From Candidatus Polarisedimenticolia bacterium (lineage in GTDB: Bacteria > Acidobacteriota > Polarisedimenticolia > Gp22-AA2 > AA152), in assembly GCA_036004685.1 (NCBI GenBank), contig DASYRE010000021.1, forward strand, positions 1 to 48,104: DNA of 48,104 nucleotides. The letters are read 5' to 3'. Both the position numbers and the translations under genes were made by a program. The notes below the pieces were generated by a model. That model ran no database searches. It was not told the origin of the DNA and saw only the letters and a list, made by a program, of their open reading frames with translations. This document shows positions 14,004 through 46,114 of the stretch, piece by piece (position 1 is the stretch's first letter; every line of letters starts with the position of its first letter).

Positions 14004-14016
14004 GGGACCCTCGTTT

Positions 14017-19347: not shown

Positions 19348-19361
19348 CGTCGTAGCTCCCC

Positions 19362-21977: not shown

Positions 21978-21980
21978 CCC

Positions 21981-28888: not shown

Positions 28889-30027
28889 GCCGCCCTCCTC
28901 GCCGCGCTTCCGGACATCAACTCGCGATAGAGGTCCGCCCATCCTCGGACCATGCCGCGAAGCGGAAACCGCTCCCGCGCCCGCTCGCGGCCCGCCCGTG
29001 CGTAGCGTTCCCGCCGGGCGGCGTCCTGGAGAAGCCGCGTGACCGCCGCCGCCAGGGCTCCCGCGTCGCCCGGCGGCACCAGATCTCCGGTGACTCCCTC
29101 GTCGACGACTTCCGGCAGTCCTCCGGCGCGGCTCGCCACCACCGCTTTCCCCGCGGCCATCGCTTCCAGCGCCGCCAGCCCGAATCCCTCGAGCCGCGAA
29201 GGCTGAACGTAAAGATCGAGGGCTGGAAGAAGATCCGGAACATCGCCTCGCTCCCCGAGGAAACGGAACGCTCCCGGCTCCAGGCGCCGGGCCATGGCCT
29301 CGAGTCGCGATCGCCCCGGCCCGTCGCCGATCACCAGGCACACCGCCGCGGGAACGCGGTCGCGGACCTGCGCCATCGCCTCGATCAGCACCGACAATCC
29401 CTTGACCGGCTCGTCGAGCCTGCCGACACAGCCCACCGCCATCTGGCCGGGGACCAGGCCGAGATTCGCGCGCACCGGATCGCGGCGCGCGTCGTTCAGG
29501 AATCTCTCCGTCTCGACGCCGTTGGGCACGGTCACGATCTTCTCCGGCGGGAGGCCGACCTCCTCGATGGCACACCGCCGCACCGCTTCGGAGCAGACGA
29601 CGAGGCGATCCGCCAGGAAGAAGGTGGCCCGCTCCACGAAGCGCCGGGAAGCCGGAAGCCAGGCATCGGTGCCGTGATGCGAATTCACGATCACCGCGGA
29701 TCCCGCGCCGGCGGCCGTCAGCCTCACGGCCAGGTTGGCCCAGTAGAGGTGGGAGTGGATGACGTCGAACCGGCCCCGCCGGAGCTTCGACCAGAGTCGC
29801 GCCAGGCAAGCGGGGCTGAAGCGGCCCGCACCGCCCGAAGGTTGAGCTCCGGAGCCCTCGGCGCCCGGCTCCGCGCCGCGCCGCGCTCCGTCCTTCAGCG
29901 CCGCCAGCGTGACCTCGAACCCCTCGTCGCGCAACCCGGGGAGGCTACGCCGGAGAATTTCCTCCGCCCCGCCCACGCCGAGGCCGACCGTGAGCAGCAG
30001 CAGGCGTGGAGGGCGCGTCGCGCTCAT
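28885..30027 (-). CDS. Glycosyltransferase family 4
   Basis: 380 residues. N-terminal LLLTVGLGVGGAEEILRRSL, DVIHSHLYWANLAVRL, the PNGVETERF turn, the UDP-sugar region GCVGRLDEPVKGLSVLIEA and EX7E block RLEGFGLAALEAMAAGKAVVAS. ATG at 30027 overlaps the next gene's stop as ATGA. In-frame sequence upstream is a shadow. A Gly/Ala-rich insert around residues 50-70 is unusual. Sugar specificity not visible. Confidence 0.92.
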   Translation of the reverse strand: MSATRPPRLLLLTVGLGVGGAEEILRRSLPGLRDEGFEVTLAALKDGARRGAEPGAEGSGAQPSGGAGRFSPACLARLWSKLRRGRFDVIHSHLYWANLAVRLTAAGAGSAVIVNSHHGTDAWLPASRRFVERATFFLADRLVVCSEAVRRCAIEEVGLPPEKIVTVPNGVETERFLNDARRDPVRANLGLVPGQMAVGCVGRLDEPVKGLSVLIEAMAQVRDRVPAAVCLVIGDGPGRSRLEAMARRLEPGAFRFLGERGDVPDLLPALDLYVQPSRLEGFGLAALEAMAAGKAVVASRAGGLPEVVDEGVTGDLVPPGDAGALAAAVTRLLQDAARRERYARAGRERARERFPLRGMVRGWADLYRELMSGSAARRAA

Positions 30028-31127
30028 GCGCCGCTCCTTCCCACCTGGCGGAACAGATCCAGCAGACGGCGGGCGGAGTCCTCCCAGCGGAAGCTCCGGG
30101 CGCGGCGAACGCCCTCTTGAATTCGCTCCGTCCGGCCGGGCTCTTCCGTCAGCGAGAGCGCGATCCCCTCCGCCAGCGATTCGGAACTCGCGGGATCGAA
30201 GCGGAGCGCCGCCGGACCGCAAATCTCCTCGAACACCGGAAGATCGGAGACCAGGACCGGCGTGCCGACGGCCATCGCCTCCAGCGCCGGGATTCCGAAG
30301 CCTTCGTAGCGCGACGGAAAGACGAGGAGATCGGCGGCGGCGTAAAGCGCCGGGAGATCTTCCCGGGGAACGTAGCCGGAGAGGAGAATGTCACGGCGAT
30401 AGGGGCTGCGGACGATCCGCGACAGCAGGCGGCTCGAGTCGCGCCCCCCACGTCCCGCGATCAGGAGCTGCACGCGGCCTGGATTCCGGGATCGGAAGAG
30501 ATCGTAAGCCTCGACGAGACGGAGGAGGTTCTTGCGCGGATGGAACGACCCCAAGGTGATCAGATACCGGCCGTCGAGCGCATAGCGGTCCCTGACGCGC
30601 TGCTCGTCCCGCCGTCCCCATTCGGCGAAAAAGCGATCTTCCACGCCCGGCGGGATCACCACTGTCTTCGGCCCGGCTTCGGGGTGGAGCGCCGTCAGAT
30701 CACGGCGGGTCGATTCCGAAACGGCGACGATCCGATCGGCCCGGCGCGCCGCCAGGGAGACCCAACGGCGCTGCCGCGCACGCTCGAGGAGGGAATAGCT
30801 TTCCGGGACGTGGTGCCAGGAGAGATCGTGGACCGTCACGATGCGCAGCGGGACGCCGGCGGTCGGGAAAGCGGTGACCGGCGAATAGAACAGATCGAGC
30901 CGGTCCCCGGGGACCGGGGACGGCCGCCGCCAGGCCATCCAGGGCGAGCGAACCCCCACACACTGCCATCTTCCCTCCGGAAGACGGGGCGCCCCCTCGC
31001 GCGCGCCGAAGAGGAGGTACTCCTCGCTGCCGCCGAGGAGGATCAGCCTTCCAAGGATCTCCTGGAAGTAGGTCTCCACCCCCGTCCGTTCGGCCACCAG
31101 AAACCGCGCGTCCATGCCGATCCTCAT
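30024..31127 (-). CDS. Glycosyltransferase family 4 (mannosyl/WbaZ-like)
   Basis: 367 residues. Start MRIGMDARFLVAERTGVETY is the WbaZ/mannosyltransferase-like N-terminus; VTVHDLSWHHVPESY and the ALDGRYLITLGSFHPRKNL segment are typical of that branch. EX7E block RYEGFGIPALEAMAVGTPVLVS. GGAAGG lies six bases before the ATG, and the start overlaps the upstream stop as ATGA. Mannose or rhamnose transfer is a reasonable guess only. Confidence 0.92.
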   Translation of the reverse strand: MRIGMDARFLVAERTGVETYFQEILGRLILLGGSEEYLLFGAREGAPRLPEGRWQCVGVRSPWMAWRRPSPVPGDRLDLFYSPVTAFPTAGVPLRIVTVHDLSWHHVPESYSLLERARQRRWVSLAARRADRIVAVSESTRRDLTALHPEAGPKTVVIPPGVEDRFFAEWGRRDEQRVRDRYALDGRYLITLGSFHPRKNLLRLVEAYDLFRSRNPGRVQLLIAGRGGRDSSRLLSRIVRSPYRRDILLSGYVPREDLPALYAAADLLVFPSRYEGFGIPALEAMAVGTPVLVSDLPVFEEICGPAALRFDPASSESLAEGIALSLTEEPGRTERIQEGVRRARSFRWEDSARRLLDLFRQVGRSGA

Positions 31128-32302
31128 GAGGCGCCTTCCCGCGCGCGGCGGCCGGAGAGAGCCGCGGGGCGCCCGAGGAAAGCCATCAGTTCGGCGTACC
31201 GTGTCCCCCAGTCATGCCGCTCCGCGAAAGCCCGATACTCGCTGCGCCGGCCCCCCGCCAGGGCGCTGCGCGCCGCATCCACCCATTCGGATCCGTTGCG
31301 CGCCAGGAGGGCGGGGGAGGCGATCCGGCGAATCTCCTCGAGATCGGCGGCGACGACCGGGATCCCGGCCGCGAAATACTCGTAGAGCTTGACCGGGTGG
31401 ATGGCCCGGGTCAGCGCCGTGTCCCGGAACGGGATGATCCCAAGATCCGACTCCCCCAGGATCCTCGGCACTTCCTCCGCGGAGACCGGACCCTGGAACT
31501 TCACTGCGGGAAGCTCTTTGGCCCAGCTCCGGCCGAGCCGGTTCGGCCCGGCCAGCACGATCTCCGCCTCGGGCAGGCCGCGGGCGAGGGCGGCGACCGC
31601 CGCAGTGTCGAACCAGCTGTCGATGGCCCCCAGGTAGATGATGCGCGCCGCCGGAGCCGGCCACATCCTCTTCGGAAGAATCGGAAACCGCCGGAGATCC
31701 ACTCCATTGGGAAGCAGGAGGACGCGCGAATTGAAGCGGCTCGCCCTCTCCGCCAGGGAGAGCGCCGTGGCCACCACTCGATCCACCCTTCGCAGAGCCT
31801 CCTCCTCGATCTTCGCGTAGGAGCGCGGCGTGTCGGGAAAGGCGGCGGCGTGATCGCTGACCCGGTACAAGCTGAGATCGAACTTCACTTTCTCGAGCAG
31901 GGGCAGGAGAGGACTGCCGGTCGCCAGCCAAAGCAGATCGATCCGGCCGAATCCCTCTCCTTCCAGGCGCCGCATCAGGCCGGGAACGGTCAGGGAGAGG
32001 GCATGACGGTGCAGCCAGCGACGATCCAGAAGCGGATGGCGGCGGTAGGCGAAGGGGCTCAAGGGAGCGTAGGCAAAGAGGCGCCCGCTCCCGGCGCGGA
32101 GGCGCACTCCTCCTTGCCGCCAGCAGGCTCGCCGGCGCCGCACTTCGTCGTTTCCGCCGGCGAGATTCCAGGGGGCGAGCGGACCGTTGAGCCAGGCCAC
32201 GCTCCAGCCCTCGTCCAGGAAGCGTGCCGCGAACGCCCGGCCGCCGACGCGGATCGGGCTTTCCCAGGAGTGGTGCTCCCACATGATCGCCGCCGGGCTC
32301 AC
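31124..32302 (-). CDS. Glycosyltransferase, GT-B fold (GT4-like, divergent N-terminus)
   Basis: 392 residues. The C-terminal half is clear: LPNGVDLRRF, IIYLGAIDSWFDTAAVAALA, FRDTALTRAIHPVKLYEYFAAGIPVVA, with the KxYEY form seen in TuaH/WcaI-like transferases. The N-terminal half (WEHHSWESPIRVGGRAF...) is less typical. GTG at 32302 is chosen: AAGGGAG lies four bases upstream and the upstream stop is 10 bases away; ATG six codons later is the alternative. Acceptor probably the growing lipid-linked glycan. Confidence 0.85.
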   Translation of the reverse strand: MSPAAIMWEHHSWESPIRVGGRAFAARFLDEGWSVAWLNGPLAPWNLAGGNDEVRRRRACWRQGGVRLRAGSGRLFAYAPLSPFAYRRHPLLDRRWLHRHALSLTVPGLMRRLEGEGFGRIDLLWLATGSPLLPLLEKVKFDLSLYRVSDHAAAFPDTPRSYAKIEEEALRRVDRVVATALSLAERASRFNSRVLLLPNGVDLRRFPILPKRMWPAPAARIIYLGAIDSWFDTAAVAALARGLPEAEIVLAGPNRLGRSWAKELPAVKFQGPVSAEEVPRILGESDLGIIPFRDTALTRAIHPVKLYEYFAAGIPVVAADLEEIRRIASPALLARNGSEWVDAARSALAGGRRSEYRAFAERHDWGTRYAELMAFLGRPAALSGRRAREGAS

Positions 32303-32312
32303 GAGGCTCCCT

Positions 32313-34448
32313 TCATGAAGGGGACTCCAGCGTCTCGCGGGCCCGCAGCGTCCATTCCGTCGCCGCATCGATCTCCTCCCAGGAGATCAGCTCCGAGGGC
32401 TGCCCGCCCAGCGCGCCGACCAGCGCCTCCGTCTCCGCTTCGATCCCTTTGTCCCGGCTCCGCGTGATGCGCCGCGCCTTCCCGCCGGCGTGAATCGAGA
32501 GATCCCGATAATCGTCGAGGACGAGCGAGGTCCCGGCAGCGTGGATCTCGACCCGCTCCTTGGGCAAGGAGGCGTCGCCGAGGCTGGTGTACAAGAGGGT
32601 TCCCAGCGAGCCGTTTTGCATCCGAACAGAAAGGAGGAAGTTGTCGCCGGAAGCGGCGCCTTCTTCGGCGGGGAGGCTCTCCGCCCGAAGCGCAGCGATG
32701 GCCGATCCGGCCAGAAAGGGGATCAGGTCCAGGAAGTGGCACCCCTCCCCCGTCAGCCGCCCCCCTCCCACGGCGGGATCCCGGGTCCAATGATCCGCGG
32801 GGAGGCGCAGCGCGTTCACCCGGACCTCGATCATCAGCGGCCCCCGCAGCCGCGCAATCGTCTCCCTCATCCGGCGGACGAGGGGCGCATACCGGCGGTT
32901 GAAACCCACCGCCAGCAGGCCTGGGGAGCTCCGGCGGACGTCGCGAATCTGCTCGAGCTCGGCGCGGCTCAAGCAGAGCGGCTTCTCGACGAAGACCGAC
33001 TTTCCCGCCCGCAGCGATCGCACCACCTGCTCGGCGTGAAGGTGATGGCGGGTTCCGATGACGACGAGGGAGATCGCCGGATCGCGCAGGACGGCCTCCA
33101 AGTCGGTCGAGGCATACGCCGCTTCGAAGCGATCCGCGGCCAGCCGCGCCCCTCCGCCGGTGCCCGAGACCACTCCGAGGACTCGCACCCCGGATCGCCG
33201 GCGCAGGGCGGGAACGAAGACCTCCTTCATGAAGCCGCCGGCTCCGACGATGGCGACCCCGAGGTCCGACGCCGACTTCGTCGCCGGACGGAGCGGAACG
33301 GTCCGCTCGATCGGCCGGGGGGGCTCGGCGCGCGCCGGGTACGACAGAAGCACCGCCGGACGGGAGGGCGGCACCGCCAGGCTCTCATAGGCTTCGTGAG
33401 CCTGCTGAACGGGCCAGATGCGCTCGATCAGCGGGGCGGTCCTCAGGCCTCCGGCAGCCATCATTTCCAGGACGCAGGCCAGGTTTCTCCCTTCCGTCCA
33501 GCGCACGTAGGCGAAGGGATAGTCCCGTCCCCCCTCTTCGTATGCCGGATCGTATCGTCCGGGTCCATAGGACGTGGAGATCAGGAGGTCGAGCTCCTTG
33601 GCATAGAGGAGCGAGCGATCGGCTTCCAGGCGCACGTCCCCGACGACCACGACCCTCCCTTTCTTGCGGGCGAGCCTCATGGCGAGGTCGAGGGGCTCGC
33701 TCGTGGAAGAAGCGGCGAAAACCATGACGACGTCGAGGCCGCGGCCCGCCGTTTCGCCGAGGCTCTCCCCTTCCGGATCGCACTCCTCCAGTCCTCGGGC
33801 GCCCACGATCCCGAGCTCGCGGGCCAGAGCGGCGCGCCCCGCGCTGCGGTCGAACGCCAGCACCCGGCAGCCGGCGGCGCGCGCGATCTGCGCTCCCAGC
33901 ATTCCCACCAACCCGAGACCCACCACGCCGACCGTCTCGCCCACGCCGGCGCCGCCGCGCCGGAAGCCGTGCAGGGCGATGGCGCCGAGCGTCGCGAACG
34001 CGGCCTCCTCCATCCGCAGCCCGGCGGGGACGGGGGCCATCAGATTCGCGGGAACCGAGATGATTTCCGCGTGGTGGGCGTACTGCGCACCGGCGCACGC
34101 CACCGGCGTCCCCACGGGAATCTGCACCCCTTCGCCCCGCTCCACGATCACACCCGACGCGGAATAGCCCATTTCCATAGCCTCCGGCGGGGAGGAAAGG
34201 GCCCCGGCCCGCCGCAGGATTCCCGGCAGACCTTCGGAACGCACCACTTCGACCGCTCTTCGGAGCGGCGACGGGTGCCGGATCATCCGATCCAGGGACG
34301 ACCGGCCGCTCGCCGCGAGCGCCGCGCCTTCCGTGCCGGCGCTGATCACGGAGTAGGCGGTCACCACCAGGGCCCGATGAGGATCGGGGGCGGGGGCCGG
34401 AACTTCCGCCACCTCCACCTTTCCGCCTCGCACCAGGACCTGCCTCAT
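32313..34448 (-). CDS. Two-domain oxidoreductase: zinc-type alcohol dehydrogenase-like plus Gfo/Idh/MocA-like
   Basis: 711 residues. N-terminal domain (about 1-375): medium-chain dehydrogenase fold with GYSASGVIVERGEG, the NAD(P) loop VVGLGLVGMLGAQIARAAG; the usual catalytic zinc cysteine is not obvious (VISAGTEG replaces it). C-terminal domain (about 395-705): NAD(P) loop VAIVGAGGFMKEVF, the conserved SVFVEKPLC (EKP) and GEGCHFLDLIPFL with the catalytic-type His. This architecture is known from surface-glycan clusters, typically beside a heparinase II/III gene as here. A role in sugar-nucleotide or uronate redox chemistry is inferred. ATG 34448 has GGGGGAG upstream and overlaps the heparinase stop as ATGA. 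Confidence 0.88.
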   Translation of the reverse strand: MRQVLVRGGKVEVAEVPAPAPDPHRALVVTAYSVISAGTEGAALAASGRSSLDRMIRHPSPLRRAVEVVRSEGLPGILRRAGALSSPPEAMEMGYSASGVIVERGEGVQIPVGTPVACAGAQYAHHAEIISVPANLMAPVPAGLRMEEAAFATLGAIALHGFRRGGAGVGETVGVVGLGLVGMLGAQIARAAGCRVLAFDRSAGRAALARELGIVGARGLEECDPEGESLGETAGRGLDVVMVFAASSTSEPLDLAMRLARKKGRVVVVGDVRLEADRSLLYAKELDLLISTSYGPGRYDPAYEEGGRDYPFAYVRWTEGRNLACVLEMMAAGGLRTAPLIERIWPVQQAHEAYESLAVPPSRPAVLLSYPARAEPPRPIERTVPLRPATKSASDLGVAIVGAGGFMKEVFVPALRRRSGVRVLGVVSGTGGGARLAADRFEAAYASTDLEAVLRDPAISLVVIGTRHHLHAEQVVRSLRAGKSVFVEKPLCLSRAELEQIRDVRRSSPGLLAVGFNRRYAPLVRRMRETIARLRGPLMIEVRVNALRLPADHWTRDPAVGGGRLTGEGCHFLDLIPFLAGSAIAALRAESLPAEEGAASGDNFLLSVRMQNGSLGTLLYTSLGDASLPKERVEIHAAGTSLVLDDYRDLSIHAGGKARRITRSRDKGIEAETEALVGALGGQPSELISWEEIDAATEWTLRARETLESPS

Positions 34449-36514
34449 CGTGGCTCCCCCGGGCGCGGCGTCAAGACGTACCGGAGCCGGAAGGGAACGG
34501 CTCCCGCCCGCTCGACCCGGACCACGAAGGCGGGGCGCGTCACCCCGTAGGACGGCGAGTGGAGATCCTCCTCCACGTGAAGCCGGTGCGGCCCGGGATC
34601 CCCGATCCAGGAGAATTCCAAAAGCGGCGCGCCGCGCTCGTCCCGCGCCGACCAGCCTCGCTCTTCCTGCGAGGCGGTGAGGCCGGGAGCGAGATGGAAG
34701 CTGGCAACGAACCGGTGTGTTCCCGCCCCTTCCAGCCGATCTTCAATCCGGAAGCTCCCCTGCCTTCGATCCATGAGAATGCTGCGGCGATGCGACACCC
34801 CCAGGCGGCGGTACCCGGAATGCTCCGCCCGCAGATAGGCGTAGCGTTCCTGGCTGCGCCAGCGAAGCACGCGCGGCGCATCCGCCGGGATCAGGCGGAA
34901 CGGCTCCTCGGGAAAGGGGTTCATCTCTTCACCGTCGACCTGCATGGTGTTGTGCGATCGCGTCGAGCGAAAGCGGTTTCTCTCGGCGAGATTGGGCGTG
35001 TAGCTTCCGGTGCCGCGATCGGCGAGGACCTCGCGGCCGGAGAGGTAGAGATCGAAAGAGAGGGTGTCGTTGTGGGCGTGACCTCCGTTGCCGCCCTGCC
35101 CAACGCCGCCGGCGTCGACCACCATCTGCACCGAGCCCCCGCCAAGCTGGTAGATGCCCGTGTCGGGGAAGGCGCGGCATGGAAAGGATCGCGGCCCGGC
35201 GGGCGTCGCGGCCGCTTCCCGCCACTGCAGGAAGGGCTCTCCCAGGACCCAAGCCCCTTCGACCCAGGCGTCCCCCGCCAGATGGAGCCAGTCGGATCTC
35301 CGGAACAGATAGCCGCCCAGCGCCATCAGCGGACGCCAGTCGCGGCGCGATCGATGGTACTGGGAGAAGATGAGGAAGCGGCCGTCGTCGTTGTCCCCGA
35401 TCTGCGGCAGCGTTCCGTCCGGCCGAATCAGAACCGCCACTCCCTCGAGCATTGTCGCGAGTTTCTCGCTATACGAGGGGGGAAAGGGGTCGTGCTTCTC
35501 CGCCGCCAACAGCGCCGGGAACAGGAGCATCTCGGTCACGAAGGCGTGATACGAGAGGGAGGCTTCGTAGTCCATCCCGTCCCTGGCGACCTGCCGGTCC
35601 ATCTCTTCGATCAGGCTCCGGCGGGCAAAATCCCTCCACTCGCTCGACTCCCGGAATTCGGAGAGTCCCAGGCCGCAGAGATAGAGCCCCGCCAGGTCGG
35701 CGAGGTAATGGTTGCCCCGCACCGGGCCATCCTCCAGATTCCGCACGATGAACCTCCCGTGGAGGAGCAGCGCCTTGAGCAACTCGCCCCAGAAACGGTC
35801 GTCCCCCGCCTGCCGGAGGTAGCCTTCGGCGGCCAGGATCTCCGCGGCCCGCAGGGCCACGTCCATCGTGCAGTTCCAGTTGACTCCGCGGTAAACGGGA
35901 TTGGCGGCGACGAACGACTCGAGATGTCCGACCGCCAGGGCGAGGAACCGTGGATCGCCGCTCACCGCCGCGGCGATCCCGAGAGTGGGAAGATGCTGCA
36001 GCCGGCTGAGCTCCCACGGCACCTTGATGTCTTCACCGCGATCGGGGCGCTGGACGATCTCCAGGGAGTACTGCGCCGGCTCCCAGCGCTTCCCCGACTT
36101 GAAGTCGGTGTGCCAGTCGGGGCGTTCGCCGAGACGCCGCGGGCCGGATCCCAGGAGGTCGAAAACCCCCGCCACCAGCGCCTCCGCCGACCGCAGAATC
36201 GGCTCCAGCGACTCGGGACAGCTCTGGCTGAGGGCGCGGGCCGCCGCGCGGACCTGAAGGGACGCTGGCACGAGGGGCTCGCTCAAGCGGCGCCGCGCCA
36301 CCAGCTCCTGGCGCGACGCGGCCGGAACGGCGAGGGCCGCCAGCAAATCGGCATCGGTGAGGCTGGGGATCTGCCGGCGGTTGCGGACGCGCCGGGCGTA
36401 CCGCACCGCCCTCCCCGAAAGGCGCCGCAACGTCTCGGCGGCGGGAAGCGACAGCGCCTTGCGAACGTCGCGCGCCAGATCCTCGACCCGATAAGCTGCC
36501 AAGGCTCCCCTCAA
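34445..36514 (-). CDS. Heparinase II/III family protein
   Basis: 689 residues. An N-terminal helical part leads to an alpha-toroid domain (about 150-440; MDYEASLSYHAFVTEMLLF holds the conserved Tyr-His). The C-terminal beta-sandwich follows with GGHAHNDTLSFDLYLSGREV and ADRGTGSYTP, the family fingerprint. Such proteins cleave uronic-acid-containing polysaccharides by elimination. In biosynthetic clusters they probably trim or release the polymer. No convincing signal peptide; the N-terminus is basic. TTG at 36514 overlaps the previous stop as TTGA but has a poor ribosome site; TTG at 36502, behind GAGGGGAG, is a close alternative. Confidence 0.88.
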   Translation of the reverse strand: MRGALAAYRVEDLARDVRKALSLPAAETLRRLSGRAVRYARRVRNRRQIPSLTDADLLAALAVPAASRQELVARRRLSEPLVPASLQVRAAARALSQSCPESLEPILRSAEALVAGVFDLLGSGPRRLGERPDWHTDFKSGKRWEPAQYSLEIVQRPDRGEDIKVPWELSRLQHLPTLGIAAAVSGDPRFLALAVGHLESFVAANPVYRGVNWNCTMDVALRAAEILAAEGYLRQAGDDRFWGELLKALLLHGRFIVRNLEDGPVRGNHYLADLAGLYLCGLGLSEFRESSEWRDFARRSLIEEMDRQVARDGMDYEASLSYHAFVTEMLLFPALLAAEKHDPFPPSYSEKLATMLEGVAVLIRPDGTLPQIGDNDDGRFLIFSQYHRSRRDWRPLMALGGYLFRRSDWLHLAGDAWVEGAWVLGEPFLQWREAAATPAGPRSFPCRAFPDTGIYQLGGGSVQMVVDAGGVGQGGNGGHAHNDTLSFDLYLSGREVLADRGTGSYTPNLAERNRFRSTRSHNTMQVDGEEMNPFPEEPFRLIPADAPRVLRWRSQERYAYLRAEHSGYRRLGVSHRRSILMDRRQGSFRIEDRLEGAGTHRFVASFHLAPGLTASQEERGWSARDERGAPLLEFSWIGDPGPHRLHVEEDLHSPSYGVTRPAFVVRVERAGAVPFRLRYVLTPRPGEPR

Positions 36515-39500
36515 AGAAAACGTACCGCTTCAAGGACGCGGGCGGCGTTCCGATCCCAGGTATGCGCCGCCGCCGCCTCCCGGGCGGCCGCTCCGAGGCG
36601 CCGGCGCAGCGGCTCATCGCCCGCCAGCCGCCCCAGGGCCTCCGCCAGCGCCTCCGGATCCCCGGGCGGCACCAGGAGCGCCGTCCTCTCCGGCACCAGG
36701 ACCTCACCGATCTGCTCCAGGTCGCTCGCCACGATCCCCCTGCCCATCGCCATGTACTCGAAGAGCTTGGTGGGCGAGCCGAAGAAGCGGCTGCCGTCCC
36801 GGTTCGGCAGATGCGGCGAGGCGAAGAGGTCGCACGCCGCCAGGTAATCGGGGGCCTCACGCTGCGGCACGAGGCCGGCGAACCGGCAATGCTCTTCCGC
36901 TCCGCTCTGCCGGATGATCTCCCGCACGCGCGGCATGCCCGGTCCGTCCCCGACGAACAAGAGTGCCGCCCGCGGATGAAGCCGGGCGACCCGGCCCCAC
37001 GCCTGCGCCAGGACTTCGGCCCCGTGCCACGGGCCGAAAGTCCCCACGAAGCCGATCACCGTCCTCCCCTCGAGCCCTAGCCGGCGGCGCACCGCATCGC
37101 CGCTTCGCTCGGGATGAAAGGATCGCAAATCGACCCCGTTCGGGCAGACCAGGATCCGGTGGGGCTCCACCCCTTTCGACAAGAGCTCTTCCCTCAGGAC
37201 CTTCGAGACCGCCACCACCAGGTGCGCGTGCCTCAGGTTGGCCCTCTCGATCGCCTCGAAGACCGATCGGTGGGGCAGCGGGCGATCCCAATGGTCGGCG
37301 ATCCAGACTCCGGAGCCGTTGTACTCCAGCACGAGCGGAACGCGCAGCGCGCGCGAGAGCAGGACCCCCGCGATGCTTCCTTCGTCGAAGCGGTGGTAGA
37401 TCATGCCCGGCCGGTCCGTCCGGAAGAGATCCGATCCGGCGCGGCCGAGCGCGAAGGAGTGCTCGAAGCGCGCGGCCGAGCGCGAGACGCGAATCACCGA
37501 GGGAGGAGGAATCACGAAGACGGGCATCTCCTCGCGGGAGATCGCCGCCGGCGGATCGGCGCACAGGAAGCGGATCCGCTGCCCGGCGCTCCGGAACGCC
37601 TCCGCCATCCCGGCGATGTGACCCACCGATCCTCCGGCGCGCAGATCGCGCCACAGATCGGAGCGGAGGTAGAGGACCGAAGCTGCTCGGCGGGCGGGGA
37701 GGTCGCGAACGCGGCGGCGCGGGACCTGCGACAGCCCGGCGAGCACCGCCGCCATCCGCGGCCGCGAAGCCGCCGCCCGCAGCGCGCCGGCCAGGAGCGC
37801 CGGAATCTGCCGGGTGAGCAGCGGAACCCATCCCAGCGTCTCGACGCGTCCCTTGAGATCGCGCAGTCGCCTCTCCCGCGACCGGGCGAGGGCCCCCAAC
37901 ACTTGCAGCCTGAAGACGCGCTCGTGCCAGGCGAGGTCCTCGCTCACGATCTCGAAAATCTCCTCGCGGATGCCTCTCAGCTTCCGCAGAATGTCGCGTG
38001 GCGACGAGCGCAGAAAATCCTCACGCGTCCATTCGCCGGCGGCCGGACGCTCCCCTTCCTCCGGCTTTCGCTCGGGATCGGTCAAGAGCAGCCGCCGCAG
38101 CGATTCGGCGGCTTCTCCGCCGGATCGCTTCCGGGCCCGGCGCACCGGGATCCAATGCCAGATCTCCCCGGAATCGAGACGGCTCCGGCGGCAATAACGG
38201 ACGACGCGCTCGTAGAAGAAGGAGGAGCAGTAGAGATGGTATCCGCGGGAGCGGAATCGCTCGTCCGGAAGCCTCGACGCGGCGCCTCGATCGGCGAGGC
38301 CGGGGTCGGCGAGGATCTCTTCCACGCTTCCCTCGAGAATCCGGTTGGCCATCGGATCGAAGACGAGCCATCTTCCCGCCACGAGCAGCTCCACCACTTC
38401 GTGCGTGTCATGCCGGCGCTTGCCGCGGCCCCGGGGATGGTCCTCGGCCTGCAGCGTTACGTAGCGGGAGGCGATCCCTTCCCGGCGCGCCATCTCGCCG
38501 AGAGCGGCGCAGTAGCCGAGGCACCAGGCGACTCCGCCCCGGAGAATCGCCGTGAGATCGAGACTTTCCTGACTCCGGGAGGGATCCAGCCGCCGGTAGA
38601 GGAACTCCATCAGGTCGGACGCCCGTTGCCGGTCGGTGTATTCCTCTCCGCCGTGCTTCCAGGCCGTCACGTAGAGCATCGCGTTCCCGGATGCGGGATA
38701 GGGGGGCATGTCGAGCGTCTCGACGGTGTCCACCTCGGCGATCCGGACCCGGCTGAACCCCGCTTCGAAGAGCCGGCGCTCGAGATCGGCTCGATCCATC
38801 TTCCAGAGGTGATCGGAGACCGGGTAACGCGGGCCGCGCGCGTCGGGGGGGACGGCCGCGGCGAGCAGGCCCCGCCGGCCCAGGATCCGGTGAATTTCGA
38901 ACAGGGCCCGGGCGGGATCAGGGGAATGCTCCAGGACGTTGTCGGCGTAAACCGCGTCGAAGCTCGATGCGGGAAAGGGAAGAGCGTGGAAGTCGCACCG
39001 CACCACGGAAACCTGGTGGACCTGCCGGGCCTTCTGCAGGAACTCGGCGCCGAAGTCGGCACCGACACAGACTCCGTGCCGGTCGTGGAGGATCTTCGTC
39101 CAATACCCGGCCCCGCATCCCAGATCCAGGATCCGGCCGCGATCGAGGGGGACCCTCTCTTGGAGGCGGGCCGATTGGGCCGCGTTGCGCGCTTCCCCCA
39201 GAATCGCCTCGCGCTCCCGCTCGACCTGGTGTTCGAGACTCTCCCTATCCGACGGGCGCCGGCGGCCGCGCTCCGCGAGACGCTCGTCCACCACGTCCGA
39301 GAATCGCCGGAAGCGCACCTCCTCCCGGCGCGACAGCGTCTCCAGGAACCGCTCGATCTCCGCGAAGCGGAGATTCCCCTTGGTATGCCCGATCGCCACG
39401 ATCGTGTCGTCTCCCTCGGCGTTGAACGCCGGCGCCGGCTCGCGATCGAGTCGCGGATGGCTTCCCACGACCGGCGCCCGGCGCAGGCGCGAGGCGATCC

Positions 39501-40860
39501 GCCGCCAGGCGTCCGGATGCAAGTCCTTGAACCAGGCAACCGGATCCCTCCGCCGGCCGCGGTCGAACGCCTCGAGCAGCTCTTCGGCACCGGCGCCGTC
39601 CAGGCTGAGGCGCTTTCCCCGCATCGATTGGATGGGGAATTCCAGGATCCCCTCCTCGGCCGGAGGGGCGGGGTGGTTGATCTCGTCGGGGGAGGGGAAG
39701 AAGGGGTTCATGGCGGAGCAGGCGCCCCGGAAGTCATAACGATGCTCGAACGAATGTCCGCCCTGCCAGACCGAGGAGTCGGCTTGGATCCCGCACTCCC
39801 AGAGCGCCTGGAAGATCTTCCGGTGCGGCTGGATCCGGTACTTTCCGGCCCGGAAGACGCGCACCCGATAGCCGGGGTCCGCGTCGTGAACGATGCGCTC
39901 GAGCTCCTCCTTCAAGCGCCGGAGCACGGCCGCCGGATCCTCTTCCAGGCAATGGAGGCGGCTCCGCCCCTCGTCCCACCACCAGCTTCCGGAGGCCGCG
40001 TCCCGGCGCGGCTTCGATTCCGGAAGCCACTCGGGATGCAGGTGCAGCTGGAGATCGTGTCCGCGCCTCCGGGCGGCACGTATCTGCTCCTCCAGGGCGG
40101 CCGCCGCCGCCGGATCGCTTTCTCTCAAGAACAGAAGCTCCCCCATCTCCACGAAGAAGGTCAGCGGCGCGCCGAACCGCTCCGCCGTCCGCATGAGCGA
40201 CTCGGCCGGCCGCAGCACGCTCTCCTGCCAGTCGATCCGCTTTCCTGCTGGGATCGGCTGCCAGGTCTCGTAGTCGATCGTCAGGACCAGATCACGCCAT
40301 CTCCGGCGGGCCAGGAAGAAGACGTGGGAGCTGGGAAGCAGATGGCGCGCGGTCACGGCGAAGCGGCGGCAGAGAATCCGCTCGAGCGACTCGGGCGTGT
40401 AGTAGCGGCCGCCGGGCGACCAGGCCGCGAGGAACAGCATCCCTTCGGGGGCGAGAAGACCGCGAACCTCCTCCAGGAGGCGTTCGGCTTCCCGGGGCGT
40501 GAAGTAGGCGATGACGTCGCTGCAGACCACCAGATCGAACGATTTCGGAGGCAGATCCAGATCCTTCAGCCGGCGGGCGTCGCCGCGCAGGAACCGGATG
40601 CCGGGATGAGCGGCCCGCGCCTTGGCGACGGCAATCTCGGAAAGCTCCACACCGGTCACGCGCCGCGCCACGGAGGCGAGCCGGGCGGTGAAGGCCCCTT
40701 TGCCGCATCCGAGATCGAGGGCCGCGTCGAAGCCGCCGGCGGGCCGGCGGTGGTGCAGGAGCTCCAGATAGACCCTATACCGCTCGTCCTCGGCGCCCCC
40801 GATCTGCCAGGGGTCCTCCTCCTGGCGGTAGAGCTCCTCGAAGTTTCTTCTCACGACCAT
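36511..40860 (-). CDS. Giant five-domain glycan protein: methyltransferase, polysaccharide deacetylase, methyltransferase, transglutaminase-like, GT4 glycosyltransferase
   Basis: One uninterrupted frame of 1449 codons. Domains: (1) about 10-185, NodS-like SAM methyltransferase, LDLGCGKG at 48-55; (2) about 190-500, NodB-type polysaccharide deacetylase, TIDYE at 194-198 and LHLHPEW at 272-278; (3) about 565-735, second SAM methyltransferase, ILDLGCGAGYW at 577-587, VLEHSPDP at 642-649; (4) about 770-845, transglutaminase-like fold with the triad C780 (GVAWCLGYC), H820 (THEVVEL), D835 (LVFDPMAN); (5) 850-1055 helical arginine-rich linker; (6) about 1060-1449, GT4 with CPNGVDLRSF and SPTKLFEYMAMGRG. 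ATG at 40860; GTG two codons later gives a GTGA overlap with the flippase stop. The frame is open far upstream, but that lies on the flippase gene and is rejected. Each domain is familiar from glycan loci; this covalent combination is not one I recognise. Confidence 0.9.
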   Translation of the reverse strand: MVVRRNFEELYRQEEDPWQIGGAEDERYRVYLELLHHRRPAGGFDAALDLGCGKGAFTARLASVARRVTGVELSEIAVAKARAAHPGIRFLRGDARRLKDLDLPPKSFDLVVCSDVIAYFTPREAERLLEEVRGLLAPEGMLFLAAWSPGGRYYTPESLERILCRRFAVTARHLLPSSHVFFLARRRWRDLVLTIDYETWQPIPAGKRIDWQESVLRPAESLMRTAERFGAPLTFFVEMGELLFLRESDPAAAAALEEQIRAARRRGHDLQLHLHPEWLPESKPRRDAASGSWWWDEGRSRLHCLEEDPAAVLRRLKEELERIVHDADPGYRVRVFRAGKYRIQPHRKIFQALWECGIQADSSVWQGGHSFEHRYDFRGACSAMNPFFPSPDEINHPAPPAEEGILEFPIQSMRGKRLSLDGAGAEELLEAFDRGRRRDPVAWFKDLHPDAWRRIASRLRRAPVVGSHPRLDREPAPAFNAEGDDTIVAIGHTKGNLRFAEIERFLETLSRREEVRFRRFSDVVDERLAERGRRRPSDRESLEHQVEREREAILGEARNAAQSARLQERVPLDRGRILDLGCGAGYWTKILHDRHGVCVGADFGAEFLQKARQVHQVSVVRCDFHALPFPASSFDAVYADNVLEHSPDPARALFEIHRILGRRGLLAAAVPPDARGPRYPVSDHLWKMDRADLERRLFEAGFSRVRIAEVDTVETLDMPPYPASGNAMLYVTAWKHGGEEYTDRQRASDLMEFLYRRLDPSRSQESLDLTAILRGGVAWCLGYCAALGEMARREGIASRYVTLQAEDHPRGRGKRRHDTHEVVELLVAGRWLVFDPMANRILEGSVEEILADPGLADRGAASRLPDERFRSRGYHLYCSSFFYERVVRYCRRSRLDSGEIWHWIPVRRARKRSGGEAAESLRRLLLTDPERKPEEGERPAAGEWTREDFLRSSPRDILRKLRGIREEIFEIVSEDLAWHERVFRLQVLGALARSRERRLRDLKGRVETLGWVPLLTRQIPALLAGALRAAASRPRMAAVLAGLSQVPRRRVRDLPARRAASVLYLRSDLWRDLRAGGSVGHIAGMAEAFRSAGQRIRFLCADPPAAISREEMPVFVIPPPSVIRVSRSAARFEHSFALGRAGSDLFRTDRPGMIYHRFDEGSIAGVLLSRALRVPLVLEYNGSGVWIADHWDRPLPHRSVFEAIERANLRHAHLVVAVSKVLREELLSKGVEPHRILVCPNGVDLRSFHPERSGDAVRRRLGLEGRTVIGFVGTFGPWHGAEVLAQAWGRVARLHPRAALLFVGDGPGMPRVREIIRQSGAEEHCRFAGLVPQREAPDYLAACDLFASPHLPNRDGSRFFGSPTKLFEYMAMGRGIVASDLEQIGEVLVPERTALLVPPGDPEALAEALGRLAGDEPLRRRLGAAAREAAAAHTWDRNAARVLEAVRFL

Positions 40861-42155
40861 CCGGTGATCCACGCGAGAGCGCCAATCTCCCGCAGATCCG
40901 ACCGGCGCAGCAGCAGCGCGTCTCCGACCGAGCCCCGCAGCCGCCGCTTCCAGAGGACCAGGTGCAGAACGAGCGCCAGGCCGTAGCACAGACTCGACGA
41001 GGCGGAGGCGCCGAGGATCCCCCAGCGTGGGATCCAGGAGAGATTCAGCGCCACGTTCAAGAGCAGGGGCGGGATCCAGATCCAGACGGCCGACCACGGC
41101 ATTCCCGCGGAAGCCAGCTGGGTGGCGATCTGATTCGTCACGCCGTAGGCCCAGATTCCTGGAAGCAGCCACCAGAGGGCGGTCACCGCCGGCAGGAACG
41201 CCGCGCCGTACAGCAATGCGACGGCCGGCTTCGCGAGAAGACCGGCCGCCACGCAAAGCAGCATCAGCAGAAAGGCGGTGTGGCGCGTGACCTTCCTCGC
41301 GAAGACGGGATCTCCCTCCTCGTGCCGCGTGAGGCGGGGGAAGAGGACCATCCCGACGCTCATGGGAAGCAGGTAGATCAGGTCCGCCACCTGGACGGCG
41401 ATCGAGTAGACGCCCGCATCGGAGGTGCCCCGCATCACGTTCACGAGCAGCATGTCCGACCGGACGATGAGAAAGGCCAGAAGCGCCGCCGTATAGGCTC
41501 GCGCTCCGTAGCCCACGCTCGTCCGGAAGAGGACCAGATCGGCCCTCGGCGTTCCGCCTCCCGATTCGCGCAGGAGCTTCTGAAGCACGCCGGCCACGGC
41601 CAGGGCCGCCCCGGCCGCGATGGCGAGATTCAGCAGGAGCACCCAACGAACGTCGCCTTGCATCACGACCAGGACGACGAACAACGCCCCGAGACCAATC
41701 CCCCGGAATGTCACTTCCAGCGCGTTGAAGAGAGGAACCCGCCCGAGCCCCACCAGGAGATTCAGTCCGAACAGAATCAGCAGCTGAAACGGGATGCAGG
41801 CGACCGCCGGGAGTAGCAGCCAGAGCGGGATCTCTCCCAGGACCTGCGGCACGAAAAACGCCAGCGACAGCGTCAGGATCGCCAGCGCGGCGCCGATCGA
41901 CCAGGCGGTCCTCCGGCTGTTCCCCCACAAAGGACCGAGAAGCCCGCGGCAGCGCGATATCTGGTAGGTGTTTGAAGCGTGCAGGCCGAGATTGCCCATC
42001 TGCAGGCCGATCCCGGCGAGCGCTCCCAAGGTCGCCAGGATTCCGCGGCCTCCCGGCCCGAGGCCCCTCGCCGTGAGCACGGAGGAGGCGACCCCGGCTC
42101 CCACCAGCGCCACCCGCGCGGCGAAGGTGGCGGCCACGTCCCCGGAGAACCTCAA
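40851..42155 (-). CDS. Wzx-type polysaccharide flippase
   Basis: 434 residues, about 12-14 membrane helices, MATE/Wzx fold. Typical segments are SVLTARGLGPGGRGILATL near the N-terminus and RSDMLLVNVMRGTSDAGVYSIAVQVADLIYLLP in the middle. It would move lipid-linked oligosaccharide across the inner membrane. TTG at 42155 is chosen: GGAGGGG lies just upstream and it overlaps the asnB stop as TTGA. The longer in-frame reading is a shadow of asnB. Confidence 0.9.
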   Translation of the reverse strand: MRFSGDVAATFAARVALVGAGVASSVLTARGLGPGGRGILATLGALAGIGLQMGNLGLHASNTYQISRCRGLLGPLWGNSRRTAWSIGAALAILTLSLAFFVPQVLGEIPLWLLLPAVACIPFQLLILFGLNLLVGLGRVPLFNALEVTFRGIGLGALFVVLVVMQGDVRWVLLLNLAIAAGAALAVAGVLQKLLRESGGGTPRADLVLFRTSVGYGARAYTAALLAFLIVRSDMLLVNVMRGTSDAGVYSIAVQVADLIYLLPMSVGMVLFPRLTRHEEGDPVFARKVTRHTAFLLMLLCVAAGLLAKPAVALLYGAAFLPAVTALWWLLPGIWAYGVTNQIATQLASAGMPWSAVWIWIPPLLLNVALNLSWIPRWGILGASASSSLCYGLALVLHLVLWKRRLRGSVGDALLLRRSDLREIGALAWITGWS

Positions 42156-44092
42156 ATTCCCCTCCGTCCCGCGACCCAATAGTCGTACCAGCGGCTGAGA
42201 TTGAAGAGATTCCACAGGTGGAAGGCCCGGTCCCTCCGTCCGGAACGGTGCTCCTCCAGCATGCCCTGGATGACGCCGTAGTCGAGAAGGTCCAGCTCGC
42301 GCAGGCGGGAGGAGAGGATCGAGGCCTCCGCGAAGCGGTACAGCTCCCCCGCGAACCATTCGGAGACGGGCGCGCCGAAGCCCTGCTTCTTACGGTGGAG
42401 GATCTCCGGCGGAAGGACGCCGGCGAGAGATTTCTTCAGGAGATACTTCGAGACCCCCCCGCGGATCTTGAGGTCCGTCGGGATTCTCATGGTGTACTCG
42501 ACGAGCCGGTAGTCGAGAAACGGAACCCGGGCTTCCACGCCGGCCGCCATCGTCATCTTGTCCACCCGCATCAGGAGCAGCTCGGCGAGGCGCTGCTTGA
42601 GCTCCAGATAGACCATTCTCTCGCCGAAATCCGCTTCGGGCTTGGCGCGGCCGATCCGCTCCCAGTAATCGGCCACGACCCGGTAGGAGTCGAAGCCGTT
42701 GCAGCGCAGGCGGGCCGACGCCGAAAGGACGTCCCGCTTCTCCTCGCCCTTGAACGCGATGGCGCCTCCCCAGAACGTCGTCTCGCCGCGCGCGGCGCTG
42801 CGCAGGAGCTCCAGCCGGTCCCCGCCGCGGGACAGCAGGCGCGACGCCGTGGCCGCCGAGGCGTGAAGCGCGGCTCGCAAGGAAGCCGGAAGGGAGCGCA
42901 GCGCGCTCCCGAACCGTTTCTCCATGCCGTAGACCGACAGGTACCCCGGATATCCGAAGAACTGCTCGTCGCTTCCCTCCCCCACTTGCACCACGATCGT
43001 GCCGCTCTGCCGCGTCCGCTTGGCGAGATGGTACAAAGGAACGCAGACCCAGTCGGCGAGCGGCTCGTCCTGGTGATGGATGAGCTCCGGGACTGTTTCC
43101 TGCAAATCGCGCGCCGTGAGGACGATTTCGTGGTGGTCGCAGGAGAAGAGGCGCGCCACCCGGCGGGCCTCCTCCAGCTCGTTGTAGGCGGGCTGGCCCG
43201 CGAATCCCACCGAGAAGGTCGTCACCGGACGATCCATCTTCCGCGACATCAGGGCGACGTTGGCGGAGGAGTCGATGCCCCCCGAAAGGTAGACGCCGAA
43301 GGGCACGTCCGACATCATGCGCTTCGCGACCGCGTTCTCCAGAAGCCGGAGGATCTCGGTGCAGATGTCGCTCTCGTCGGTCTCCTCGAGACGCCCGGGG
43401 ACGATGGCGTCCCAGTAGACCTCCTCCCGCATCTCGCCTCCGGCGCCGACCCGCAGGCAGGTTCCGGGACGAAGCTTGCGAATCCCCTCGAAGAGGGTGG
43501 CGGGCGCGGGGGTGGAAACGAAGGTCAGATAGTCGAGAAAGGCCTCGAAGTCGAGCCGCGGGGAGACGGCGGGGTGGGCGAGCAAGGCCTTGATCTCGGA
43601 GCCGAAGACCAGGCCTCCGGGGATCGAGGCGTAATAAAGCGGCTTGACTCCGATCCGATCACGGACCAGGACGAGCTCTTTCTTGGTCGCGTCGTACAAG
43701 GCGATGGCGAACATCCCGTCGAGGTCCTGGAACGTCCGGAGCCCTTTCTCCTCGAAGAGGTGAAGGATCGTCTCGGTGTCGGTCGCCGACCGATAGCGGT
43801 GCCCCCTGGCCTCGAGCGGCCTTCTCAGATCCTGATGGTTGTAGATCTCCCCGTTGAAGGAGATCCAGAGCGTCTCATCTTCGTTCGACATCGGTTGGCG
43901 GCCGGCCGGCGTGAGATCGACAATGGCGAGGCGTCGATGCCCCATGCCCATCCTGCGGTCGGACGAGATCCAGACGCCGGCATCGTCGGGTCCGCGATGG
44001 ACGAGCGTCTCCCGCATCCGGATGAGAATGGGCTCCGACAGGATCGCCTCGGTGGGGATCTCGAAGCTGAATACCCCACAGATGCCGCACAT
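42152..44092 (-). CDS. asnB: Asparagine synthetase-like glutamine amidotransferase
   Basis: 646 residues. Class II glutaminase domain with Cys2 (MCGICGVFSF), LVHRGPDDAG, FNGEIYNH. C-terminal ATP-pyrophosphatase-type synthetase domain with YLSGGIDSS, TTFSVGF, HHQDEPLADW and GEGSDEQFFGY. As first gene of a surface-glycan operon it may amidate a sugar carboxylate (for example a uronamide) rather than make free asparagine. The sequence alone cannot separate these. The start codon ATG lies about 50 bases from the predicted transcription start. Confidence 0.92.
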   Translation of the reverse strand: MCGICGVFSFEIPTEAILSEPILIRMRETLVHRGPDDAGVWISSDRRMGMGHRRLAIVDLTPAGRQPMSNEDETLWISFNGEIYNHQDLRRPLEARGHRYRSATDTETILHLFEEKGLRTFQDLDGMFAIALYDATKKELVLVRDRIGVKPLYYASIPGGLVFGSEIKALLAHPAVSPRLDFEAFLDYLTFVSTPAPATLFEGIRKLRPGTCLRVGAGGEMREEVYWDAIVPGRLEETDESDICTEILRLLENAVAKRMMSDVPFGVYLSGGIDSSANVALMSRKMDRPVTTFSVGFAGQPAYNELEEARRVARLFSCDHHEIVLTARDLQETVPELIHHQDEPLADWVCVPLYHLAKRTRQSGTIVVQVGEGSDEQFFGYPGYLSVYGMEKRFGSALRSLPASLRAALHASAATASRLLSRGGDRLELLRSAARGETTFWGGAIAFKGEEKRDVLSASARLRCNGFDSYRVVADYWERIGRAKPEADFGERMVYLELKQRLAELLLMRVDKMTMAAGVEARVPFLDYRLVEYTMRIPTDLKIRGGVSKYLLKKSLAGVLPPEILHRKKQGFGAPVSEWFAGELYRFAEASILSSRLRELDLLDYGVIQGMLEEHRSGRRDRAFHLWNLFNLSRWYDYWVAGRRGI

Positions 44093-44203: not shown

Positions 44204-46114
44204 TTAGGAAGGTCCGAGCAGTTCCCGGAGTCGCGCTTCGTAGGGCGGCACATCCCGAACGATATCAGCGGCATAAACACTGTCAGGCCTGTAAGTTAAA
44301 AGGCCATGCCGAATGTCGCGGGCGCGCTCCCATTCCCCCTTGGCGGCTCCGAGGTCGCCCGAGGCTTGCAGGAGAAGCGCCGCCAAAAGCCTCGCCGCGA
44401 GGAATCCGGGCTCCTCCCGCAAGGCTTTCCGGACCTCAACCAGCGCCTCCTGCCCACGCCCTATCTCATTCAGAAAAGTGGCCATTTCCAAGCGGGGCCG
44501 GGGATCGTGGGGGACCCTTCGAACCCCCTCACGGTAGGATTCGAGGGCCCTTCTCAGGGTGGCTTCATCGTGAAACAGCTCCCGAAATGCCCGGCTCTCC
44601 AGGCGCGCGCGCGTGAGGAGAAGATCAGCGGAGGCGGAGTCCACCCGGATCCCCTGGTCCAACTCGAGGCGAAAGCGGGCATACAGTTCCAGCGTCAGTC
44701 CGGCGGGCGGCCGCGCCGCCAGGAAGGCGGTGGCCGGAAATCTCCAGGTCTCTCCTTGATAGCGATTCGCCGCGACCGCCGTCTGGAAATGATTCTCCAT
44801 CTCTTTCAACGAGGCGGCATGCCGCATCGCCTGATCGTTCCGGAAGGCGGCGTAGGGACACAGGACGGCGATCGCCCAGGCCACCGCGACAGGCAGGGCG
44901 GCGAAAAGAGCCTTTTCCTTCCAGCCGCGAAAGAGCCGGCTCTCTGTGACTTCGGTTTCCCGCGAGGCAACACCGGCAAGCACCGCGAGGCTCAGAATCA
45001 AGGCCGGCCGCAGCGACAGGTCCTCGACCGCCGCCTGCACGGCCAGGGCGATCGCCCCGGCCATGAGTCCGGTTCCCATAAGAGGCGATGCCCGTCTCGA
45101 TCGCCCGATCACGGCGAGGATTCGCGCCCCGAGGAACAGCGCCGAGGCGAAACCGACGATTCCGGTCTCCACGAGAAATCCGAGGTAGTCGCTGTGGGGT
45201 GTCTCGAAGTTCCGCGCGTAGCGGACCGGCCCCGCGAGAGGAAAATTGAAGCGGTGCGCCACGTGGCGGAAGACTCCCGGGCCAACTCCGAGCACGGGGT
45301 GCCCCGCGAAGCAGTTCAGGTCCGCTTTCCAGATTCTGGCGCGCTCGTAGGGAAAAGGATCGCCCAGCGCCGCAAAGCGGTGCGCCAGAGCCAGAACCGA
45401 CAAGCCGGCGACCCCCGCGAAAATCGCCGCCACTGCCAGCCGGCGCTTTCCGCTGATCTCTCCGCGGGAGTCCCAGGCCAGCCAAAGGACGCCGGCCGCG
45501 AGCCCCAGCAGCGCCCCCCGCGAGGCCAGCACCGAGAACGCGGCGAGGCAAAGCGCCATCGCCGCGAGGCGCCAGCTGCTTCTTTTTCGATCGCCCGCCA
45601 GCAGCTCGGGAAGCGCGATGAGGCTCGCGAAACCGAGGTAGGCAGCCTGATGATTGGCATTGAGAAGTCCCCAGGCGGCAAGCGTGGCTGGCAGGCGGCC
45701 CGCGGCGGCGCCGAAGAGCACCGCCCCCGCCTGCAGGACTCCCGAGGCAAGCAGGCAGTTCCTCAGCATCCTGTGCTCCGGATCCGGCGCGCCCCACCGC
45801 CGGGCGAGGACGAACGCGACTCCCGCGACCAGGAGATCGAGGCATCGCAGGAAGCTCGCGTAGGGATACGGAGTCCCCCAGGCGGACAGCAGAAGGGCGA
45901 TCACGAAGGCCGAAGCGGGGGCGAGCAGCGACCGGGGCATCAGCGCCGGCGGGCGGGAACCTGCCGGGAGAAGCGCGAGCGCCGCGGCGCCGGCGAAGAC
46001 CAGGGTGTGGATCGCGAAAAGGGCCCCGGGAGCCGCCCCACCCTCCCCGAACGGCAGCGCCAGCAGGAAGAGAGCGGGCACCCAGCCGAGCCGCGGGCGC
46101 TCAACGGGAATCAT
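44204..46114 (-). CDS. O-antigen ligase/polymerase (Wzy/WaaL)-like membrane protein with repeat tail
   Basis: 636 residues. About ten to twelve membrane helices in the first 400 residues. The Wzy_C-type periplasmic loop is visible as GVGPGVFRHVAHRFN followed by FETPHSDYLGFLVETGIVGF (conserved H-S-D/N-Y and E of this family). The last ~200 residues are soluble and TPR-like (YREGVRRVPHDPRPRLEMATFLNEIGRG...). Such proteins polymerise or transfer lipid-linked glycans; some (PglL/TfpO types) transfer to pilin. ATG 46114 overlaps the preceding gene by 14 bases. Confidence 0.85.
   Translation of the reverse strand: MIPVERPRLGWVPALFLLALPFGEGGAAPGALFAIHTLVFAGAAALALLPAGSRPPALMPRSLLAPASAFVIALLLSAWGTPYPYASFLRCLDLLVAGVAFVLARRWGAPDPEHRMLRNCLLASGVLQAGAVLFGAAAGRLPATLAAWGLLNANHQAAYLGFASLIALPELLAGDRKRSSWRLAAMALCLAAFSVLASRGALLGLAAGVLWLAWDSRGEISGKRRLAVAAIFAGVAGLSVLALAHRFAALGDPFPYERARIWKADLNCFAGHPVLGVGPGVFRHVAHRFNFPLAGPVRYARNFETPHSDYLGFLVETGIVGFASALFLGARILAVIGRSRRASPLMGTGLMAGAIALAVQAAVEDLSLRPALILSLAVLAGVASRETEVTESRLFRGWKEKALFAALPVAVAWAIAVLCPYAAFRNDQAMRHAASLKEMENHFQTAVAANRYQGETWRFPATAFLAARPPAGLTLELYARFRLELDQGIRVDSASADLLLTRARLESRAFRELFHDEATLRRALESYREGVRRVPHDPRPRLEMATFLNEIGRGQEALVEVRKALREEPGFLAARLLAALLLQASGDLGAAKGEWERARDIRHGLLTYRPDSVYAADIVRDVPPYEARLRELLGPS

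Follow-up and report, generated by a model that had tools for sequence, protein, structure and literature searches.

A five-domain fusion protein in an acidobacterial surface-polysaccharide locus combines two methyltransferases, a predicted NodB-fold deacetylase, a transglutaminase-fold domain and a GT4 glycosyltransferase

Nod-factor assembly involves the enzymes NodC, NodB, NodA and NodS (PMC6415152), a set that provides a glycosyltransferase, a NodB-fold deacetylase, an enzyme that can use the exposed amine and a methyltransferase. In WsaE of Geobacillus stearothermophilus, methyltransferase and glycosyltransferase modules are joined in one soluble chain that serves a surface glycan (PMC2943079), and ORF6 of K. 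pneumoniae O7 and WbdD, the latter a methyltransferase-kinase, are likewise multidomain glycan enzymes with a methyltransferase, their type showing a module order that differs among serotypes (PMC11231755, PMC3482155). The transglutaminase fold is represented in a capsule locus by HvyA of the BTLCP proteins, which carries a Cys-His-Asp triad (PMC4241560), and in biosynthesis by AdmF (andrimid), a transglutaminase homologue that forms an amide according to a passage of PMC5216899 citing Fortin et al. 2007. Single chains that join a methyltransferase to glycosyltransferases are known, and in none of them has a deacetylase or transglutaminase domain been described. The five-domain architecture reported here is new in this respect: nothing fitting was found in the open-access papers searched, in line with an earlier reading of this DNA (the sequence-only reading), which did not recognise the combination as a described architecture.

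The window, i.e. the whole stretch of DNA analysed, is a complete contig of 48,104 bases. The fusion gene lies on its minus strand (36511..40860), with an ATG at 40860, a stop that ends at 36511 and 1449 open codons; on reading, the plus strand of the same interval held no gene. From its N-terminus, the protein of 1449 amino acids consists of a methyltransferase domain (MT1), a CE4/NodB-fold deacetylase domain (DEAC), a second methyltransferase domain (MT2), a transglutaminase-fold domain (TG), a conserved linker and a GT4 glycosyltransferase domain. GC3 amounts to 0.81-0.87 in each of ten bins along the gene, and because it is so uniform no frame change is hidden there. M1 is invariant in an alignment of nine sequences, and the start of the gene overlaps the Wzx gene by 10 bases (40851-40860). 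The complete fusion is present in three other assemblies at 65-68% identity to the window protein, which rules out a chimeric contig and, together with the uniform codon GC, an artefact of assembly or frame. Pfam and NCBIfam searches recovered two separate methyltransferase domains, Transglut_core and both GT4 halves, while hydropathy analysis predicted neither a membrane span nor a signal peptide. The sequence-only reading had claimed one continuous frame of 1449 residues with five enzyme domains, and the open frame, its GC3, the domain matches and AlphaFold2 structure prediction uphold this; the same domain order recurs in three other genomes, and the key residues have not been lost, as the signature positions are invariant across nine homologues from three phyla. 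Its description of the locus was sound for the domains, left the minus strand unstated and is extended here by a conserved segment of some 125 residues (936-1062) that separates TG from GT4.

The neighbouring genes, all on the minus strand, form a polysaccharide locus. Upstream of the fusion gene, an open reading frame for a Wzx-type flippase (40851..42359, true start probably near 42150) is preceded by genes for an AsnB-type glutamine amidotransferase (42152..44092; 507 of the 817 bits of TIGR03108, below the cut-off) and, by its domain match, a Wzy/O-antigen-ligase-type polymerase (Wzy_C, 44204..46357). Downstream lie genes for a heparinase II/III-like protein that lacks both a signal and a membrane segment (34445..36514), the start of which overlaps the fusion-gene stop, a zinc alcohol dehydrogenase - GFO/IDH/MocA fused oxidoreductase recognised by its domains (32313..34448), three further glycosyltransferases (28885-30222, 30024-31127 and 31124-32368, together spanning 28885..32368) and an MraY/WecA-type polyprenyl-phosphate sugar-1-phosphate transferase (27893..28930), whose frame follows from codon GC and which matches MraY structures at 4.5e-14. 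The last is likely the initiating enzyme on the lipid carrier, and since the locus combines such an initiator with a Wzy-type gene, assembly of the units probably takes place on the carrier lipid, with flipping and polymerisation to follow. SAM and sugar nucleotides are cytoplasmic, and because the whole fusion chain is without membrane span or signal peptide, cytoplasmic action on a lipid-linked glycan is to be expected. We read the fusion, with a probability of about one in two, as an enzyme that tailors the product of a Wzx/Wzy-type surface-polysaccharide pathway in the cytoplasm and that would act on the undecaprenyl-linked glycan before flipping.

This arrangement also bears on the idea that the fusion caps the chain, its methylation of the chain end stopping polymerisation. 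WsaE, WbdD and O7 ORF6, the characterised joinings of a methyltransferase to a glycosyltransferase or kinase (PMC2943079, PMC11231755, PMC3482155), would be its models; however, they belong to ABC-transporter pathways, whereas the window locus has Wzx and Wzy-type genes, with polymerisation outside. WsaE differs further in its three domains without deacetylase or transglutaminase fold and in its use of the methyl group as terminator, and O7 ORF6 and WbdD, also chain terminators, in possessing a kinase and a coiled-coil ruler. A capping role is accordingly quite improbable. An exosortase/PEP-CTERM locus was considered as well and rejected, as the TIGR03108 match and that of the GT4 domain to TIGR04063 fall below cut-off and the exosortase-like genes of the genome are on other contigs. 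The heparinase-like gene (34445-36514) sits within a biosynthesis operon, and the protein might have a cytoplasmic role, perhaps uronate epimerisation, cf. dermatan sulfate epimerase. The polysaccharide locus is cut by the contig end (46336-48104), and it is adjoined at 11941-23264 by a type IV pilus or secretion set with a response regulator, prepilin-like proteins, a PAS-domain sensor kinase and a prepilin peptidase.

MT1 (residues 1-188, 40297..40860) contains the first of the two SAM motifs noted before, LDLGCGKG, at residues 48-55, and is NodS-like: it matches Pfam NodS at 3.8e-13, and its 51.5 bits against the NCBIfam NodS model, below the cut-off of 300, mark it as a relative only. Most of its named PDB matches are N-methyltransferases, and several act on amino sugars, among them CalS10 and the entries 3bxo, 3ofj and 3pfg, which we take to be DesVI, NodS and TylM1, respectively. 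MT1 may therefore be an amine N-methyltransferase, and such relatives next to a NodB-fold domain suggest deacetylation followed by N-methylation. MT2 (residues 546-725, 38686..39225) was identified by Pfam and carries the second motif, ILDLGCGAGYW, at about residues 577-587; its relatives are mixed in substrate class.

No Pfam or NCBIfam model matches residues 189-545 (39226..40296), nor did a sequence profile of this region match the PDB, so that DEAC was recognised by fold comparison alone. Its AlphaFold2 model (mean pLDDT 70.7 with weak stretches, pTM 0.77) superposes on HP0310 (3qbu) with a Z of 20.6 and an rmsd of 3.8 A over 243 residues, followed by other proteins of the CE4 fold: 3rxz (Z 20.3), PuuE (Z 19.0) and ArnD (Z 16.9), which works on an undecaprenyl-linked sugar. 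The predicted fold is clearly that of CE4/NodB, a deformed beta/alpha barrel. The CE4 motifs TFDD, H(S/T)xxH, RxPY, DxxD(W/Y) and I(V/I)LxHD (PMC6415152) have divergent counterparts in TIDYE, HLHPxW, FRAGxY, DSSV and VxIGHTK, with TIDYE in place of canonical TFDD, HLHPxW in place of HSxxH and a different spacing of these two motifs. D196 and E198 of TIDYE, H273 and H275 of HLHP, R337 of FRAG and H492 of GHTK are nevertheless invariant in nine homologues and provide the acid, base and metal candidates. The NodB-like deacetylase domain that the sequence-only reading had seen in TIDYE and HLHPE is thus supported by the predicted fold, and it exposes a CE4-fold family outside Pfam and NCBIfam coverage.

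TG (residues 735-935, 38056..38658) matches Transglut_core (PF01841) with 31.3 bits, above the cut-off of 23 (E 2.6e-7), and the triad C780-H820-D835, already described as intact, is invariant in nine homologues. The TG model (pLDDT 78.4), of papain-like fold, aligns with factor XIII at a Z of 10.1 (4.6 A over 158 residues) and also with other transglutaminases; vasohibin and LapG score only slightly lower. The direction of its reaction can be read in several ways, as the transglutaminase fold also includes hydrolases and acetyltransferases. TG could cut an amide (amino-acyl or uronamide) while DEAC removes an acetyl group, so that the chain would trim and methylate rather than acylate. The cysteine hydrolases VASH, LapG, CPR-C4 and 3isr, matched by the model at a Z near 9, fit this, and the AsnB amidotransferase of the locus could supply an amide for processing; on the other hand, to make and then cut an amide within one operon would be wasteful, and the group with the highest Z consists of true transglutaminases, although their lead is only about one Z unit. 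We hold two hydrolases in one chain to be unlikely. A further option is that TG links the glycan to protein, as the sequence-only reading had suggested, or cross-links chains. Transglutaminases of this fold do cross-link proteins, and the TG relatives that other loci encode as standalone proteins are membrane-anchored, with a possible site of action beyond the cytoplasm, but in the fusion TG is part of a chain without signal or membrane segment, together with enzymes that depend on SAM and sugar nucleotides and hence on the cytoplasm. The protein is hence expected in the cytoplasm, attachment to protein finds no support and we give it very little weight, amide chemistry on the freed sugar amine appearing likelier.

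As a tentative proposal, TG might be a sugar N-acyltransferase that adds an acyl or amino-acyl group to the amine exposed by DEAC, in which case one polypeptide would carry out the deacetylation, methylation and N-acylation for which rhizobia use NodB, NodS and NodA. AdmF sets a precedent for biosynthetic amide formation by the transglutaminase fold; it reportedly works on carrier-protein thioesters. HvyA resembles TG in its triad and in the setting of its gene, but it is a periplasmic, standalone protein with a signal sequence that negatively regulates capsulation (PMC4241560).

The GT4 domain (residues 1063-1449, 36511..37674) shows the two-domain GT-B match, with PF13439 (59.7 bits), PF00534 (80.5 bits) and PF13692 (99.5 bits) all above cut-off, so both halves are present and the earlier claim of a full GT4 domain holds. 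The nearest specific model, that of the XrtA/PEP-CTERM glycosyltransferase (TIGR04063), gave 140 of the 442 bits of its cut-off. The conserved linker (residues 936-1062, 37675..38055) is found as an N-terminal extension in unfused GT4 proteins of the sister family, and by this comparison it belongs to the GT4 protein and not to TG.

Within one Acidobacteriota family, each of the four genomes sampled, that of the window and those of three other assemblies, carries the full fusion. A protein of about 920 residues with MT1, DEAC, MT2 and TG, here called the tetradomain, is present without GT4 in three of eight sister-family genomes and in two MAGs, one from the alphaproteobacterial Beijerinckiaceae (L011) and one from the Nitrospinota (L012); the L011 and L012 versions have no membrane span by hydropathy, and a sister-family version (L116) has one weak hydrophobic stretch. 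It was found in no further genome among 396 drawn from the Acidobacteriota phylum, and it was found only in the seed genome among 289 genomes of the alphaproteobacterial class, among 248 of the seed's family and among 77 Nitrospinota genomes, in scans that scored only the 2-11 best first-look candidates per genome and that weak relatives could escape. The tetradomain is a rare family. Spread by plasmids was considered and dropped, Deinococcus plasmids yielding only weak methyltransferase matches.

In both L011 and L012 a GT4 gene directly follows the tetradomain gene, the same order as inside the fusion. The extended GT4 of the sister family resides in a Wzy-AsnB-GT4-heparinase-oxidoreductase locus (L013, L014, L120), and the tetradomain gene, where present, is on another contig with no neighbouring GT4. 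In a GT4 tree built by a quick method, the window GT4 groups with those of the sister family (SH-aLRT 97) and the GT4s of L011 and L012 fall in two other clades. The tetradomain tree places the fused family apart from the versions of the sister family, the Beijerinckiaceae and the Nitrospinota; these are 50-54% identical to one another and 40-43% identical to that of the window. As the two trees conflict, the histories of the two parts differ. The tetradomain appears to be passed on horizontally and to have come separately to precede three GT4 lineages of one family; only in the window's Acidobacteriota family was it fused to GT4, which was joined to it later.

The flippase is the constant partner. 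The end of a Wzx-type gene overlaps the start of the tetradomain gene by 4-17 bases in nine of nine loci, the Wzx frame being split in two of them (G002 and G009), probably through sequencing error. In the Wzx tree, weak support unites the flippases of the unfused group (80) and likewise joins that of the window to a Wzx from the core locus of the sister family (86). Among four sister-family genomes, a close Wzx is present where the tetradomain is (G004, G009) and absent where it is not (G005, G007). In G004 and G009, two of the three sister-family genomes with a tetradomain (the third has a contig end there), the pair faces genes for an ArnC/GtrB-like transferase (PDB matches of 1.2e-85 to GtrB and 2.3e-47 to ArnC), a methyltransferase and a PMT_2-type GT-C protein, by sequence another lipid-linked-sugar context. 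It recalls the ArnC-ArnD-flippase-ArnT lipid A route, in which a CE4-type deacylase acts on an undecaprenyl-linked amino sugar before flipping; that route differs in its single activities and has no methylation, transglutaminase or Wzy step. The pairing weighs as well on whether it is a nucleotide-activated sugar that is modified, ahead of its transfer by GT4, so that the fusion would channel a donor and not a lipid-linked acceptor. MT1 relatives such as DesVI and TylM1 act on dTDP-amino sugars, and joining tailoring domains to a transferase would achieve such channelling; yet the constant neighbour is a flippase and not GT4, and the sister-family tetradomain has Wzx at its side and no GT4, which makes donor modification a rather doubtful reading. 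The real unit is a four-domain protein, apparently mobile, that goes together with a Wzx flippase.

Counterparts encoded separately were found in other loci. Around GT4 relatives, 78 loci contained heparinase-like (64), AsnB (61), methyltransferase (58), fused oxidoreductase (49), Wzx (44), TG (8) and DEAC (3) genes. Clostridial loci have methyltransferase, GT4 and TG as separate genes between AsnB and heparinase, e.g. in the row AsnB-Wzx-MT-MT-GT4-TG-heparinase of Pelotomaculum (L028); in Desulfoscipio (L016) the row comprises three methyltransferases, GT4, TG, radical SAM and heparinase, the radical SAM gene directly following that of TG (14606-15751). The cultivable Desulfoscipio geothermicus DSM 3669 carries an unfused MT-MT-MT-GT4-TG set. 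DEAC was not found in these clostridial sets, and the four activities are therefore not obligatorily linked. In the Beijerinckiaceae MAG, separate genes for a methyltransferase, a possible CE4 protein, a membrane-anchored TG and a methyltransferase lie beside the tetradomain gene (L118, 458-4635); the standalone DEAC relative is suggestive only, with an hhalign probability of 78% (E 1.8e-5) and nothing by plain HMMER. A Methylomirabilota locus encodes a different fusion, MT-GT4, with 846 residues. Because unfused and otherwise fused rows exist, we assign the activities to a single type of locus in which they are fused in various ways. Bordetella wbmRSTU, considered as an unfused counterpart, was dropped, the one account of it consulted being without domain content.

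The tailoring model draws on the domains, their folds and conserved residues, the operon, the Wzx overlap and the independent partnering with GT4s, as read from sequence or structure models. On a presumed lipid-linked substrate, and probably in this order, a WecA/MraY-type transferase would initiate the unit on its carrier, undecaprenyl phosphate, GT4 would attach a sugar, DEAC would strip the N-acyl group from an amino sugar, MT1 would N-methylate the freed amine and MT2 would methylate a second position. TG would make (or exchange) an amide, in the place held by the N-acyltransferase NodA in Nod-factor assembly, and the finished unit would pass to the adjacent Wzx flippase and be polymerised outside. 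Against this model speak the non-canonical motifs 1 and 2 of DEAC, the mixed relatives of MT2, the capacity of TG-fold enzymes to hydrolyse amides, the membrane anchors of standalone TG relatives and the lack of DEAC in the clostridial sets. Compared with the Nod-factor set, the fusion is one polypeptide with GT4 instead of the GT2 enzyme NodC, a transglutaminase fold in the place of NodA, a second methyltransferase and a Wzx/Wzy locus, and its DEAC and MT1 are only distantly related to the Nod enzymes. The single-chain glycan factory of the sequence-only reading thus survives as a tailoring enzyme with apparently intact domains in a surface-polysaccharide operon, shorn of the attachment of protein by TG.

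If TG were indeed a sugar N-acyltransferase, the transglutaminase fold would have a novel function in glycan biosynthesis. The fusion family represents a natural experiment in enzyme fusion, in which the activities appear in separate genes, in a four-plus-one gene pair or in a single chain, and their recurrence in all three forms suggests a common substrate. The fusion offers a testable setting for the role of transglutaminase-like proteins in bacterial polysaccharide loci, where the protein probably decorates a surface sugar chain just ahead of flipping.
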